The translations under genes and the position numbers were made by a program. Shown piece after piece: positions 10,254 to 64,000 of a stretch of 64,000 bases of DNA. The DNA is taken from the NCBI GenBank assembly GCA_944324665.1, contig CALUXD010000002.1:124001-188000 (forward strand), read 5' to 3'. A model generated the notes under the pieces. That model was not told the DNA's origin. It made no database searches and saw nothing but the letters and a program-made list of their open reading frames with translations. Each line of letters starts with the position of its first letter. Position 1 is the stretch's first letter. This DNA is from Candidatus Proelusimicrobium volucris (GTDB lineage: Bacteria; Elusimicrobiota; Elusimicrobia; Elusimicrobiales; Elusimicrobiaceae).

Positions 10254-11114
10254 ATGTTTCACATAAAAAGGAAATTGCCGATTATTATTATAACGGTTAT
10301 GCTTTGTGTGTTTATCGGCTCTACAAATGTGAAGGCGTATGAAACGTTTTTAACTCCTGGCAGCGGGGGGACGATAACCGATGTCGGAACGGTGGTGGAC
10401 GGTGGAATGGTCTCTACTGTAAATTGCAATTCCGTCGGTGCGATTCAATATCGCGCAAATAGTGATTGCGGGACTTCGCAGAGGACGTGCTGCGCAAATA
10501 AACTGTGGTCTGGTTGGGATAAGGAGTGTACTTGCCAAAAAGACGGTGAAGAATGCGACCGTTGGCAAATATACGCTAGTTTTGACGCCGAAAATTGCAA
10601 ATGCGTATGCCCCGAGGGCGCCATAGAGGTTAACGGCGTTTGCGAGTGTGACGAAGCCAATGGCTATAAACTAGGCGATCACGAATGTGTAAAAGATGAT
10701 ACTCCCTCATGTCCCGCAGACGAATGTTGGAACGGTTCGGCATGCGAGGCTAAAGGCTCTACGAGTATGTCTTGCGTTGGTTCTGTACAGTTGACGACAA
10801 GCGGGACTTTAACCAGAACGGCTATCTGCCATGAGGGAAGCGGTTGGTCTTATGGGGGATGGAAAGGAACATGTAGATGTCCCAACGGCTATACGTGGGT
10901 AGGAAGCGGGTTGAGCGGATATTGCGATAAAGAAGAGTCTTGGGTTTGGTCTTGTGACCACGGTTCAATAGTGTCCACTGACGGTTGTAAGATTTATGGC
11001 GGGGAAAATCCTCTCAGGGGATATCCATGCAGCAGTAAGGGTGCTACTGCGACAGCTTATGAAGATATAGGCGCTGGACAGTGTGAAAAAGCCTATTGTG
11101 TATGTGGAGGATAA
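10254..11114 (+). CDS. Secreted cysteine-rich protein A (three-member family of this window)
   Basis: A 286-residue protein with a clear Sec signal peptide (basic start, hydrophobic 9-22, cleavage near VKA-Y). The mature part is extremely rich in Cys, Gly and Trp. Residues about 65-92 hold the family module: [QK]-Y-x4-[DT]-C-G-T, four residues, then C-C-x4-W-S-G-[WC]-[DN]-[KQ]-x-C. Residues 113-130 look like short EGF-like or 'NGxCxC' units, and 158-164 hold CWNGSAC, also present in protein C. No LPxTG, lipobox or barrel is seen, so it should be secreted or held at the surface by disulfide-bonded partners. I recognise no named family. It has its own promoter and terminator, hence a single-gene unit. 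Function is unknown. Confidence 0.85.
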   Translation: MFHIKRKLPIIIITVMLCVFIGSTNVKAYETFLTPGSGGTITDVGTVVDGGMVSTVNCNSVGAIQYRANSDCGTSQRTCCANKLWSGWDKECTCQKDGEECDRWQIYASFDAENCKCVCPEGAIEVNGVCECDEANGYKLGDHECVKDDTPSCPADECWNGSACEAKGSTSMSCVGSVQLTTSGTLTRTAICHEGSGWSYGGWKGTCRCPNGYTWVGSGLSGYCDKEESWVWSCDHGSIVSTDGCKIYGGENPLRGYPCSSKGATATAYEDIGAGQCEKAYCVCGG

Positions 11115-11214
11115 AATAGGCATAAGGTATGTTTTAATTTACCTATAATAATGTCTATAATTGTGAATTGTAGATATTGCGATTGTTAAGGAAACTAACA
11201 TCTTATAATTAACT

Positions 11215-19919: not shown

Positions 19920-20855
19920 ATGTACGCCGGCTTTTGGAAAAGGTTTTTTGCTTTTATAATAGATTGGGCCATATTATTTGCCTTGATGTTATTGCTTTAT
20001 ATTGCGCTAGGTATTTTTACATTTTATCTGACTGATTGGCAGAGTGATACTGGTATAAATTCAATAAATGTTCTAACAGCGCTTTTTTACTTAAGTTCCT
20101 TCGCTGTTCCTATTCTTTATTGGAGCTTTTTTGAAGCATCGTCTTATCAGGCTACGCCCGGCAAAATGGCGCTTGGCATAAAGGTCTGCGACGAGAACGG
20201 AAATCCGCTGAAGTTTACGCAGTCGTTGGGGCGTAATCTGGGTAAGATAATTTCAAATTTAACTTTTTATATCGGTTATGTGATGGCGGGTTTTACGGTC
20301 AAGCGTCAGGCACTGCACGATAAAATGTCGGGCTGTTTGGTTATTGATAAAACGGCGAATATTGATGATTTACGGCCTTTCCCCAAAGCGTCGCTATGGA
20401 AGATAGCGGCGGCGGTATTTGCGGCGCTGTTGCCGTTCTTTTTGTTGTTTGCGCTAATAACGGCATTAATAGTTTTTCTTTCTTTCTCATATGTAAAATC
20501 TTTTATGGATTTTAATAATGCGATGCAAAATCTAAGTATGATAAAACGAATGCAGACTTCCTACAAACTGGAAAATGGCGCCTATGCCGACAGGGTAGGA
20601 GATTTGTTTTCTGCAGGAAACGAGGCGGTAAAAGCGGAAAGTTCAGGGAAGGAAGACTTTTCTTTCTCACATGACGGAGATTTTTCTTATAAGTTGGTTT
20701 CAGGTGGAGTTGCGGCAGAATATAAAAGGGTACCGCATTATTATTTAACGTTGTGTTATGATGCCGAAAAAAAATGTCTGAGCGATGATTTGGAAAAATT
20801 AAAAGATAGAGATATTGTCATAGCGTCCCCAGAGGAATGCTGTGTCGAAAAATAG
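19920..20855 (+). CDS. RDD-family membrane protein with pilin-like C-terminal domain (1)
   Basis: A 311-residue protein. Residues 1-145 are an RDD domain: the start MYAGFWKRFFAFIIDW, two transmembrane helices, the ATPGKMALGIKV motif and the HDKMSGCLV end. A third hydrophobic segment (about 155-190) leads to an extracytoplasmic C-terminal domain. That domain begins with a helix (NLSMIKRMQTSYKLENGAYA) and then a beta region, resembling the globular part of type IV pilin or pseudopilin proteins. It has four cysteines: LTLCY..KKC and a terminal P-E-E-C-C. The next gene is a paralogue with the same organisation and cysteine spacing. AGGGGT precedes the ATG, and a TATAAT (19882-19887) lies upstream. 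The RDD domain's function is unknown; the fusion is unusual. Confidence 0.8.
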   Translation: MYAGFWKRFFAFIIDWAILFALMLLLYIALGIFTFYLTDWQSDTGINSINVLTALFYLSSFAVPILYWSFFEASSYQATPGKMALGIKVCDENGNPLKFTQSLGRNLGKIISNLTFYIGYVMAGFTVKRQALHDKMSGCLVIDKTANIDDLRPFPKASLWKIAAAVFAALLPFFLLFALITALIVFLSFSYVKSFMDFNNAMQNLSMIKRMQTSYKLENGAYADRVGDLFSAGNEAVKAESSGKEDFSFSHDGDFSYKLVSGGVAAEYKRVPHYYLTLCYDAEKKCLSDDLEKLKDRDIVIASPEECCVEK

Positions 20856-20868
20856 GAGGAATAAAAAT

Positions 20869-21897
20869 ATGTATGCAGGGTTCTGGAAAAGGCTTGCCGC
20901 CTTTATAATAGACAACATAATAGCCTATGTGCTTTTGATGATTGTAATGGCTTTTATAGGGTATAGCGATAAGCTGTCCAATCCCGCTACGGTAGTATCG
21001 GCGGTTTTGGTTATGACGGCATGCTCGATGCTGATTTATGCTTTATATTGGGCCTTGTTTGAGAGTTCTTCTCTGCAGGCTACGCCGGGCAAAATGGCGC
21101 TGGGTATAAAAGTAACGGATATGAATGGCAACAGGATTTCTTTTGGCCGTGCGCTTGGGCGTAATTTGGGTAAAATAATATCCGGATTTACGCTTAATAT
21201 AGGCTATGTTATGGCGGGTTTTACCGTAAGAAAGCAAGCCTTACATGATAAAATGGCCGATTGCTTGGTAATAGACAAAAACGCAGATACTCAGAATTTA
21301 CAGCCTTTGCCTAAGGCAAGCGGCACATTGGTGTTTTTTGCCATATTAGGCGCGCTTAGTCCGTTTATTATTTATATTGTTGCGATGAGCTTTATGTTTA
21401 TGGCGTTCTTTAAGATGGCTGGTATTCCGTCAATCCCGACAAGTGGAGCTTCGCTATCGGAAAGGGGCGGCTATGCCGATGTACTTGAATCTTCTGAAGA
21501 AGAAAATACATCTGAAGAGGCCTATTTATTGGAGGAGGAAGACGACTTGAATAATGCGGAAATCCTTAAAGTTAAAATGATGGGCAATCTGCTTCTTGTT
21601 ATTGCGAAAATTCAAGAAATGTATGCCGAGCAAAATAACGGGCAATACGCCAAAACTTTTGAGGAACTAAAAGAAAATATGCCGGAATTTCCGGAACAAT
21701 CCTACGAAGTTGTCAATTACAAATTGGCTTTGGGGGAGAACTATATTACGGCCTCAGCCGAGGAAAAAGACGGTGTTCCCGCCCATACTCTTACCCGCTG
21801 TTACGCCAAAGACAGGACTTGTATATATGCGCATGTTTTTTCTTTTGTTAAGGAAGTAGATTTGCCATATTCTCAACCCGAAATGTGCTGTTTATAG
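20869..21897 (+). CDS. RDD-family membrane protein with pilin-like C-terminal domain (2)
   Basis: A 342-residue paralogue of the preceding gene. I set the start at the ATG at 20869 because it aligns with the neighbour's MYAGFWKR start and follows AGGAGG; the longer frame begins inside the previous gene. The RDD domain covers about 1-145 (ATPGKMALGIKV, HDKMADCLV). A third hydrophobic segment and a Glu/Ser-rich acidic linker (about 205-230, SSEEENTSEEA) follow. The pilin-like domain has the helix LVIAKIQEMYAEQNNGQYA and cysteines in LTRCYAKDRTC and P-E-M-C-C, the same spacing as in the first copy. The pair arose by tandem duplication with an insertion of the acidic linker. A strong terminator follows. 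Confidence 0.8.
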   Translation: MYAGFWKRLAAFIIDNIIAYVLLMIVMAFIGYSDKLSNPATVVSAVLVMTACSMLIYALYWALFESSSLQATPGKMALGIKVTDMNGNRISFGRALGRNLGKIISGFTLNIGYVMAGFTVRKQALHDKMADCLVIDKNADTQNLQPLPKASGTLVFFAILGALSPFIIYIVAMSFMFMAFFKMAGIPSIPTSGASLSERGGYADVLESSEEENTSEEAYLLEEEDDLNNAEILKVKMMGNLLLVIAKIQEMYAEQNNGQYAKTFEELKENMPEFPEQSYEVVNYKLALGENYITASAEEKDGVPAHTLTRCYAKDRTCIYAHVFSFVKEVDLPYSQPEMCCL

Positions 21898-21949: not shown

Positions 21950-22172
21950 TATGTTGTAAAATCTCTGATAAAGCGGAAGATATGTATTATCGTGCAGTAT
22001 AAGTAGGGGTAAAATTTACTTATTTAATCTAGGCTTGGCGAACAGGGGGATTTCTAAACTTCTACTTTTAGGGAGGAACTTAAAAAGATTGCATTTGCCT
22101 GCCTGCGAAGTTGGCGTTTTATTAACATAATCAAAGTAGTACGTCTAAGTAAACCCAAAAAGCAGAAACAGC

Positions 22173-22201
22173 TTGACTGTTTTTTTTTTTTTTGATAAAT
22201 T
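22173..22201 (+). promoter_or_regulatory. Promoter of Cys-rich gene B with 14-T homopolymer spacer
   Basis: TTGACT (22173-22178) followed by G, 14 consecutive T (22180-22193), GA and TAAATT (22196-22201). With TAAATT as -10 the spacer is 17 bases, the optimum. GATAAA at 22194 is the alternative -10, with a 15-base spacer. A homopolymer in the spacer changes promoter strength whenever its length slips, as known for porA of Neisseria meningitidis (poly-G). The same element with 13 T precedes Cys-rich gene C. Confidence 0.75.
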
Positions 22202-22294
22202 TTTCCTGAATTGCAGGCTGGGAATATTATTCATATCGTATTTTGTGCGAAAACACCTGTGGCCTGCATAGAAAATCGGAGGAGGTCTTTTTTT

Positions 22295-23263
22295 ATGTCA
22301 AAAAATTGCGGATTGAAATTATTGCTTTCAGCACTTTTTCTAGCAGTCTCTCTTCCAGTTTGTTCGCAAGTGTTAAAACTGTGTACGCCAGGTACTAAAC
22401 AGTATAAACCGAAAGGCGACTGTGGGACCAGCGTCAGTACTTGTTGCGATAGCGGAATATGGAGCGGATGGGATAAGAGCTGTGGTTATTTTTGGAGTTG
22501 CCGACAAGTCCCTAAAAGTTATTGCAGAGGGACGACGGGCGGTCTTCCGGCTACGGTTAGCGGTTCTTTGCAAGGGAAAAGCTGCAGTGAATATGGCAAA
22601 GAGGGTTTTTCCAGCGGAACGACAAATGGCGATGGAATGCTTATAGACGGAAGCAACAGTGCTTGCTATCAATGCGCCTGCGGATATATGCCGACAAGTC
22701 CCGCATGCAACTGCTCAGGTACGGCCAGCGGAAGTTGTACAGCATATATAAACGGTGCAGCTTATGTAGGAACAAGAAAATGCGTGGCTTCGTGTCTTTG
22801 GGATGATTGCTATTCTATAAGTAACCCCGAAGGACAATATTGTGGTTTGACACCAGGTAAGACATATCAATGCACTCCGGCGGCATATCCGGAACACGGC
22901 GGTTATCAAGTATGCGAAAGCGCTTACGACGAACCCGGACAGCTGAAAATAAGCGCTTGTATAGCTTGCGGAGCCAACCAGTGCCTAGCTAAAAGCGGTG
23001 GACTTGGATCTGACGCAAGATACTACTGTGTATCCAAACCGACTAGCGGATCTGACACTAAAGGAAAATATAATTGTACGGCTGCCACTTGTCGTAATGC
23101 GGGTATGACTACATCTCCGTGGACTTGCACGGCCAAAACATATACGTCGTGCTATAGCGGGTATACTTTGAGCGGCGGGAATTGTGTTTCCAACAGCGGA
23201 GGAGGCGGTGGTTCGACAATAATAAAGCCAATAGACCCTAGCCTGCCTTCTTTGAAACTATAA
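22295..23263 (+). CDS. Secreted cysteine-rich protein B
   Basis: A 322-residue protein. I use the ATG at 22295, preceded by GGAGGAGG and followed by a normal signal peptide (KLLLSALFLAVSLPVCS-Q); an earlier in-frame start at 22211 would place untypical residues before it and lies too close to the promoter. The family module is at residues 36-63, with C-G-T, C-C and W-S-G-W at the same spacing as in proteins A and C. The rest contains about 30 further cysteines in CxC and CxxC pairs, with Gly, Ser, Thr and Tyr, and no regular repeat. A Gly-Gly-Gly-Gly-Ser tail leads to a short C-terminal IIKPIDPSLPSLKL segment. No membrane anchor is seen. Expression is probably phase-variable (poly-T promoter). 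Function unknown. Confidence 0.85.
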   Translation: MSKNCGLKLLLSALFLAVSLPVCSQVLKLCTPGTKQYKPKGDCGTSVSTCCDSGIWSGWDKSCGYFWSCRQVPKSYCRGTTGGLPATVSGSLQGKSCSEYGKEGFSSGTTNGDGMLIDGSNSACYQCACGYMPTSPACNCSGTASGSCTAYINGAAYVGTRKCVASCLWDDCYSISNPEGQYCGLTPGKTYQCTPAAYPEHGGYQVCESAYDEPGQLKISACIACGANQCLAKSGGLGSDARYYCVSKPTSGSDTKGKYNCTAATCRNAGMTTSPWTCTAKTYTSCYSGYTLSGGNCVSNSGGGGGSTIIKPIDPSLPSLKL

Positions 23264-23315
23264 ATTGCCGTATAGGAATCTTTTTGAAGGGGATACATTC
23301 CTCTCCAACTAACCG

Positions 23316-23344
23316 CCCCGCCGCGCAGACGGCGGGGTTTTTGT
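23316..23344. terminator. Terminator of Cys-rich gene B
   Basis: CCCCGCCG/CGGCGGGG stem with a 6-base loop and TTTTT, nearly the same as the terminator of gene A. Confidence 0.92.
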
Positions 23345-63373: not shown

Positions 63374-63401
63374 TTGACTGTTTTTTTTTTTTTGATAAAT
63401 T
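63374..63401 (+). promoter_or_regulatory. Promoter of Cys-rich gene C with 13-T homopolymer spacer
   Basis: TTGACT (63374-63379), G, 13 T (63381-63393), GA and TAAATT (63396-63401), spacer 16. The block from GCTTGACTG to GATAAATTT is identical to that of gene B except for one fewer T. Confidence 0.75.
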
Positions 63402-63494: not shown

Positions 63495-64000
63495 ATGCCG
63501 AAAAACAAAATGGTTAGAAGGGAGTTTTTTAACAAAATCTTATTTTTGTCAGTTTTATTTACTGTTGTTTGTGCAAGCAATATATTTGCGGCGGTGGCAT
63601 CATGTTCTGGAATTACGGACGGCCAGACAAGATATGGCACAATAAACGGAAAATGCTGGGCATATTATTGCAGTGACGGTTCAATAAGGCAGCTGGGCAG
63701 TGTAGATTCATCTAAATGCGCCAGCTGCAACGGAGTGAAATATGCTCCTTTGGGCACTTGCGGAACCTGTAAATATGAATGTTGCAGCGATGGAAGCTGG
63801 AGCGGATGCAACCAAGCGTGCCCGGATCCTTCAGATTGTTCCGGCGATACCTGTTGGAACGGTTCAAGCTGTGTTTCTAAGCCGACCGGCAGCAAGTATT
63901 GGGGCAAATACAATGTTTTTTATAACGGCACTTGCTATTATACTTGCGATTCTTGGGTTTGCAATAAAGGTAGCGGATGGTCGTGTACCAGTAAGACTCC
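63495..64000 (+). CDS. Secreted cysteine-rich protein C, N-terminal part, runs off window
   Basis: Read directly from the sequence: the ATG at 63495, preceded by AGGAG, opens a frame of at least 168 codons to the window edge. A signal peptide (FFNKILFLSVLFTVVCASNIFA, cut near residue 32-33) precedes a Cys-rich chain. The family module sits at residues 82-109 (K-Y-x4-T-C-G-T, four residues, C-C-x4-W-S-G-C-N-Q-x-C) with exactly the spacing of proteins A and B. CWNGSSC at 120-126 repeats a block of protein A. After this comes a Tyr/Cys-rich stretch. The 3' end is not in the window. Function is unknown; promoter architecture suggests phase-variable expression. Confidence 0.85.
   Translation, partial: MPKNKMVRREFFNKILFLSVLFTVVCASNIFAAVASCSGITDGQTRYGTINGKCWAYYCSDGSIRQLGSVDSSKCASCNGVKYAPLGTCGTCKYECCSDGSWSGCNQACPDPSDCSGDTCWNGSSCVSKPTGSKYWGKYNVFYNGTCYYTCDSWVCNKGSGWSCTSKT

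Follow-up and report, generated by a model that had tools for sequence, protein, structure and literature searches.

Can a run of 14 T residues lying between the two hexamers of a bacterial promoter serve as a switch for the gene behind it? The question is raised by positions 22173-22201 of a 64,000-nucleotide stretch of the Candidatus Proelusimicrobium volucris genome (the whole stretch is called the window here), which stand in front of a gene for a secreted Cys-rich protein. An earlier note had read this site as a TTGACT-17-TAAATT promoter with a 14-T spacer and as a candidate phase-variable switch. Judged from sequence, a slippage-driven surface-protein switch is a plausible reading, and the site is one member of a large set. 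It probably belongs to a dedicated Elusimicrobiaceae promoter class that would drive enlarged gene families, encoding secreted Cys-rich proteins and proteins like type IV pilins, with a core consisting of a sigma-70-type TTGAC(A/T/C), in most cases an extended -10 element (TGN-TANANT), and a spacer that is mostly a pure T run.

The promoter was found exactly as described, its sequence being TTGACTG-T14-GATAAATT, and the following features were assigned to the site and the region immediately upstream of it:

22138..22148, plus strand: upstream TACGTC-type motif, part of a block common to many of the 31 promoters compared
22157..22172, plus strand: A-rich block with GC at its end, abutting the -35 hexamer
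22173..22178, plus strand: -35 hexamer TTGACT, read in the sequence, with TTGAC retained in related promoters
22179..22195, plus strand: 17-base spacer (G + T14 + GA), read in the sequence
22180..22193, plus strand: slippage-prone tract of 14 T, from the sequence, a genome-wide T-run search and the comparison of pilin copies
22193..22201, plus strand: extended -10 element TGA-TAAATT (TG motif and -10 hexamer), from the sequence

The final T of the tract and the following GA form the TGN of the extended -10 element, and this TGN is retained in relatives whose -10 hexamer is altered to TACATT, TAAAGT or TACAGT. The site combines what is expected of a sigma-70-type extended -10 promoter, namely a TTGACA-like -35, a TGN-TATAAT-like -10 and a spacer within 15-18 base pairs (bp). 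The two upstream blocks have the consensus cgTacgt.gAggttt and AAAAAacGC, respectively, in 31 promoters of this genome (G000) and its sister species (G007), and the A-rich block may be an UP-like element. Runs of at least 10 T are not unusual in themselves (2 in the window, 3.4 expected from its base composition), and 0.00 occurrences of the complete promoter pattern are expected in shuffled windows. An Rfam scan around the site gave nothing close to threshold. That the 14-T run sits within a genuine promoter is, as far as the sequence can tell, nearly certain.

The view of a single switched locus was not borne out. The exact 29-mer of 22173-22201 occurs twice in the 1,496,100-base genome, and the motif with any tract length has 11 copies, a second one lying in the window itself at 63374-63401; their tracts are T10 (one copy), T12 (four, one of them following GG), T13 (four) and T14 (two). 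A genome-wide search for runs of at least 10 T returned 11 sites, all of which are these promoter copies, and long T runs are therefore absent from the rest of the genome; shuffled sequence contains approximately 3.4 such runs per 64 kb, and runs of at least 8 T number 117 in the genome. The genes behind the 11 promoters encode either secreted Cys-rich proteins or type IV pilin-like proteins (MKNLNRKGFTLIELLVVV). The pilins under this promoter, but not the window gene itself, have a GFxxxE prepilin motif and match PF07963 and TIGR02532. Two features of homopolymer-spacer phase-variable promoters, a homopolymer between a recognisable -35 and -10 (in the window and in relatives) and the control of surface or secreted proteins, were thus found for a regulon-wide class.

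A third such feature, a tract of slip-prone length that varies between near-identical copies, was provided by the pilin cassettes of the same genome. Two of them, with T10 and T12, are identical over the 130 bases 3' of the tract and show 3 differences in 500 bases downstream, and T14 is carried by a third cassette whose promoter and leader are the same. Among these near-identical cassettes, tract length evolves more quickly than the sequence on either side, and slippage, as proposed earlier, can be seen.

The proposal that the spacer is the critical quantity was also upheld. Across 11 genomes, 254 promoters were compared: where 1, 2, 3 and 4 bases separate the -35 hexamer from the T run, T counts have their mode at 13, 12, 11 and 10, respectively, and the total spacer has its mode at 16 bp for every one of these prefixes. 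The distribution is 16 bp in 172 promoters (68%), 15 bp in 41, 17 bp in 21, 14 bp in 15, 18 bp in 3 and 13 bp in 2, so that 237 of the 254 fall within 15-18 bp; these statistics, entered by hand, are for genomes in which a GA/GC/GG-type junction precedes the -10, and promoters of the G014 type were excluded. The same offset was observed between species: the window gene has G-T14 and its G007 orthologue GG-T13, both with a 17-bp spacer, and another orthologous pair has GG-T12 and G-T13, both with 16 bp. Since the T count offsets the prefix length, promoter function is supported and the spacer length is constrained, which amounts to strong evidence that this is a promoter and that its spacing counts. 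In genome G014 (loci L209-L226), two spacer classes of 15-16 bp and 19-20 bp were seen with about equal T counts; the 19-20 bp class mostly lacks TGN and does not fit easily into the usual sigma-70 pattern.

How widely is this design distributed? A survey with one genome per species and patterns requiring at least 8-9 consecutive T, so that shorter or interrupted tracts went uncounted, gave matches in 65 of 90 family genomes and 2 of 6 genera, with approximately 1,180 matches in total (some overlapping). The pattern used in this survey, a stricter one, gave at most 94 matches in one genome, and the reversed pattern gave zero in every one of the 90. Relatives have TTGAC...TATAAT or TACAAT on the two sides of the tract, and each has flanks of its own: TTGACTTG-T12-GATAAAGT (G011), TTGACATCG-T11-GCTACATT (G026, 98 matches), TTGACACCCG-T10-GATAAATT (G004), TTGACGG-T14-CTATAAT (G010) and TTGACAACG-T15-CTACAAT (G014). 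Nearly all genes downstream of the loci examined in G026, G014 and G022 encode pilins. Some tracts have an unusual length or position: a 27-T run, far longer than elsewhere, lies between TTGACAAGC and a pilin start at position 1501 of L101 (G003), two T16 runs 50 bases apart (positions 1451 and 1501 of L102, G011) precede a partial pilin at the end of a contig, and several tracts of G011 and G026 are situated at contig ends.

On this basis, replication slippage would lengthen or shorten the spacer by 1-3 bp, the optimum being 16-17 bp, and each slip would raise or lower the transcription of its own gene independently of the other copies. Cells would then differ, heritably and reversibly, in which pilins and Cys-rich surface proteins they hold, and selection would draw the spacer length back. 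That slippage at these sites alters expression and has a biological role is rather probable from the sequences compared. The fuller version, in which up to approximately 95 promoters per 1.5 Mb genome, each before a pilin-like or Cys-rich surface gene, slip independently and are held near 16 bp by selection, is put forward more tentatively.

Several observations weigh against such switching. In the subclass, 68% of promoters have a single spacer length. The spacer is equal at 7 of 10 syntenic sites between this genome and G007, a small sample with a permutation p of 0.014, and rapid free switching is therefore unsupported; either slippage is slow or selection restores the length. The earlier switch proposal is upheld in part: the promoter, the constrained spacer, the slipping tract and the surface or secreted genes stood, and the comparison of species speaks against fast free switching, the spacer being mostly kept, the window orthologue included. 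The extended -10 element could lessen the sensitivity of these promoters to spacing. A mutS gene was found above the family cut-off in 40 of 40 genomes searched, so that slippage is subject to repair; a lack of mismatch repair as the cause of the long tracts was rejected on the same result. In Mycoplasma agalactiae, the surface-protein promoters of vpma also have a T tract close upstream of the -10, which was shown to generate no variation (PMC2268961), and such a tract by the promoter of a surface-protein gene is therefore insufficient evidence for a switch.

The main rival explanation is that the tract is a structural element and no switch: a stiff A/T-tract spacer of approximately 16 bp, held at that length by selection, would give promoter strength or specific recognition (for example, for pilin co-regulation), and length differences would be deleterious noise. 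It accounts for the tight 16-bp mode with compensating prefixes in 11 genomes, for the 78 of 95 G026 tracts that are identical, for the syntenic sites that mostly keep their length, and for -35 and -10 elements that are near-invariant inside one genome. But one copy in three has another spacer length than the mode, and the near-identical cassettes described above differ by up to 4 T. Moreover, G018, a genome of one 1,643,562-base contig with approximately 80 pilin matches, has a T run above 8 in none of the 27 pilin upstream regions that were readable, from which it follows that the tract is not needed by pilin genes. We consider a purely structural role unlikely, though it deserves more weight than the other rivals.

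The tract could also be a by-product of cassette spread, copied by recombination together with the promoter and the pilin or Cys-rich genes and having no role of its own. Promoter, leader and terminator are indeed common to unrelated inserts, and the genes at the same chromosomal site differ between G000 and G007. T counts that compensate for the prefix, together with independent flanks between species, would be hard to obtain without selection, however, and a genome without long T runs elsewhere also speaks against this explanation, which is very improbable. Tract lengths were taken from assemblies whose read type is not given, and certain read types make errors in homopolymers, which is the point in favour of a chance homopolymer or an assembly artefact; with 0.00 occurrences expected by chance and tracts in 65 separate assemblies, this explanation is already refuted for the existence of the tract, but not for its exact lengths, and its probability is close to nil. 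Slippage with an effect on expression is thus the reading we prefer.

At several syntenic sites, the upstream DNA and promoter are the same in G000 and G007 but the gene behind them is different, and the loci therefore look like self-contained expression cassettes that exchange their contents. In L010 and L027, as in L013 and L022 (G000 and G007, respectively), site and promoter are shared and the Cys-rich gene differs, as if swapped. Spread of the promoter on one mobile element was rejected as an explanation, since the copies often cease to be homologous approximately 60 bp upstream and their genes and leaders differ. One gene of G007 (L029, G007:C10:205000-210000, after position 1320) encodes 498 amino acids in which a type IV pilin N-terminus continues into an extended region of Cys-rich repeats.

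Downstream of the promoter, the window contains the following features:

22278..22286, plus strand: strong Shine-Dalgarno sequence GGAGGAGGT, from the sequence
22295..23263, plus strand: gene for a secreted Cys-rich protein of 322 amino acids, from the sequence and the shared N-terminal domain
23307..23343, plus strand: rho-independent terminator AACTAACCGCCCCGCCG...CGGCGGGGTTTTT, from the sequence, common to most Cys-rich cassettes
63374..63401, plus strand: second promoter copy, T13 with a 16-bp spacer, from the pattern search
63495..64000, plus strand: second secreted Cys-rich gene, 279 amino acids in full, extending beyond the window end

The secreted Cys-rich gene described in the earlier note was recovered, with its ATG at 22295, approximately 90 bases 3' of the promoter, 31 Cys residues and a hydrophobic, signal-peptide-like segment at its N-terminus. 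Its N-terminal domain has the pattern CxxG..QYKPxGxC(G/D)T..RTCCxxGxWSxWxxxC and is present in 6 of 60 relatives, every one within this genus; most Cys-rich genes terminate with the same AACTAACCGCCCCGCCG... terminator, which for the window gene was also placed at 23315-23338. The protein has no match in Pfam or NCBIfam, the domain has none among solved structures, and the structure prediction for the window protein was uninformative (mean predicted local distance difference test score 36.7). A third gene of the Cys-rich family at 10254-11114 of the window has no poly-T promoter, with a possible TTGACT-17-TAAGAT upstream and a variant of the shared terminator nearby at 11207, and 7 more Cys-rich genes in the genome are also without a T tract. 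Just upstream of the promoter, at 19920-21897, two adjoining RDD-type membrane proteins with differing C-terminal extensions were read from the sequence.

Known switches with a homopolymer spacer serve one gene or a small family and come mostly from pathogens. The Elusimicrobiaceae, a gut family that has been little studied, have this design in most of their members, before expanded pilin and Cys-rich repertoires. If the switch is real, each cell lineage would inherit a set of surface proteins particular to it, and the slippage-based surface repertoire would be larger than any known to us. The many natural copies that share their flanks but not their T count are a ready-made experiment on spacer length and promoter strength, switching could be looked for in metagenome reads with no need to grow the cells, and the promoter signature locates the surface repertoire of these uncultured bacteria.

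Among known systems, porA of Neisseria has a homopolymer in its -35/-10 spacer as well, but it is a single locus and its tract is poly-G. In Bordetella pertussis, the length of a C-stretch alters the transcription of fim2, fim3 and fimX (PMC1891110), and several fimbrial subunit genes share a homopolymer promoter as they do here; that C-stretch, however, sets the distance between the -10 and a region bound by an activator, whereas the T run of the present class lies between a good -35 and -10. In Streptococcus pyogenes, the T homopolymer before the surface protein gene Spy1336/R28 gives three transcript states with 9, 10 and 11 T; unlike the tracts reported here, it is a single intergenic locus and is not described as a -35/-10 spacer in the cited part of that source (PMC7098570). 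The passages cited from PMC2268961 name vlp, maa2 and vmm as precedents with a tract in the spacer. There is a close likeness to vlp of Mycoplasma hyorhinis, in which switching with tract length was shown (Citti and Wise 1995, as cited in PMC2268961 and PMC10502178) and in which a divergent surface-protein family has, for each gene, its own promoter with a homopolymer in the -35/-10 spacer. The tracts of vlp are poly-A, whereas in the Elusimicrobiaceae promoters the coding strand has T, the -10 is mostly extended, the genes behind encode pilins and Cys-rich proteins and the copies number up to approximately 95. The Elusimicrobiaceae class is a very large version of the known homopolymer-spacer promoters, such as those of Mycoplasma vlp and Bordetella fim.
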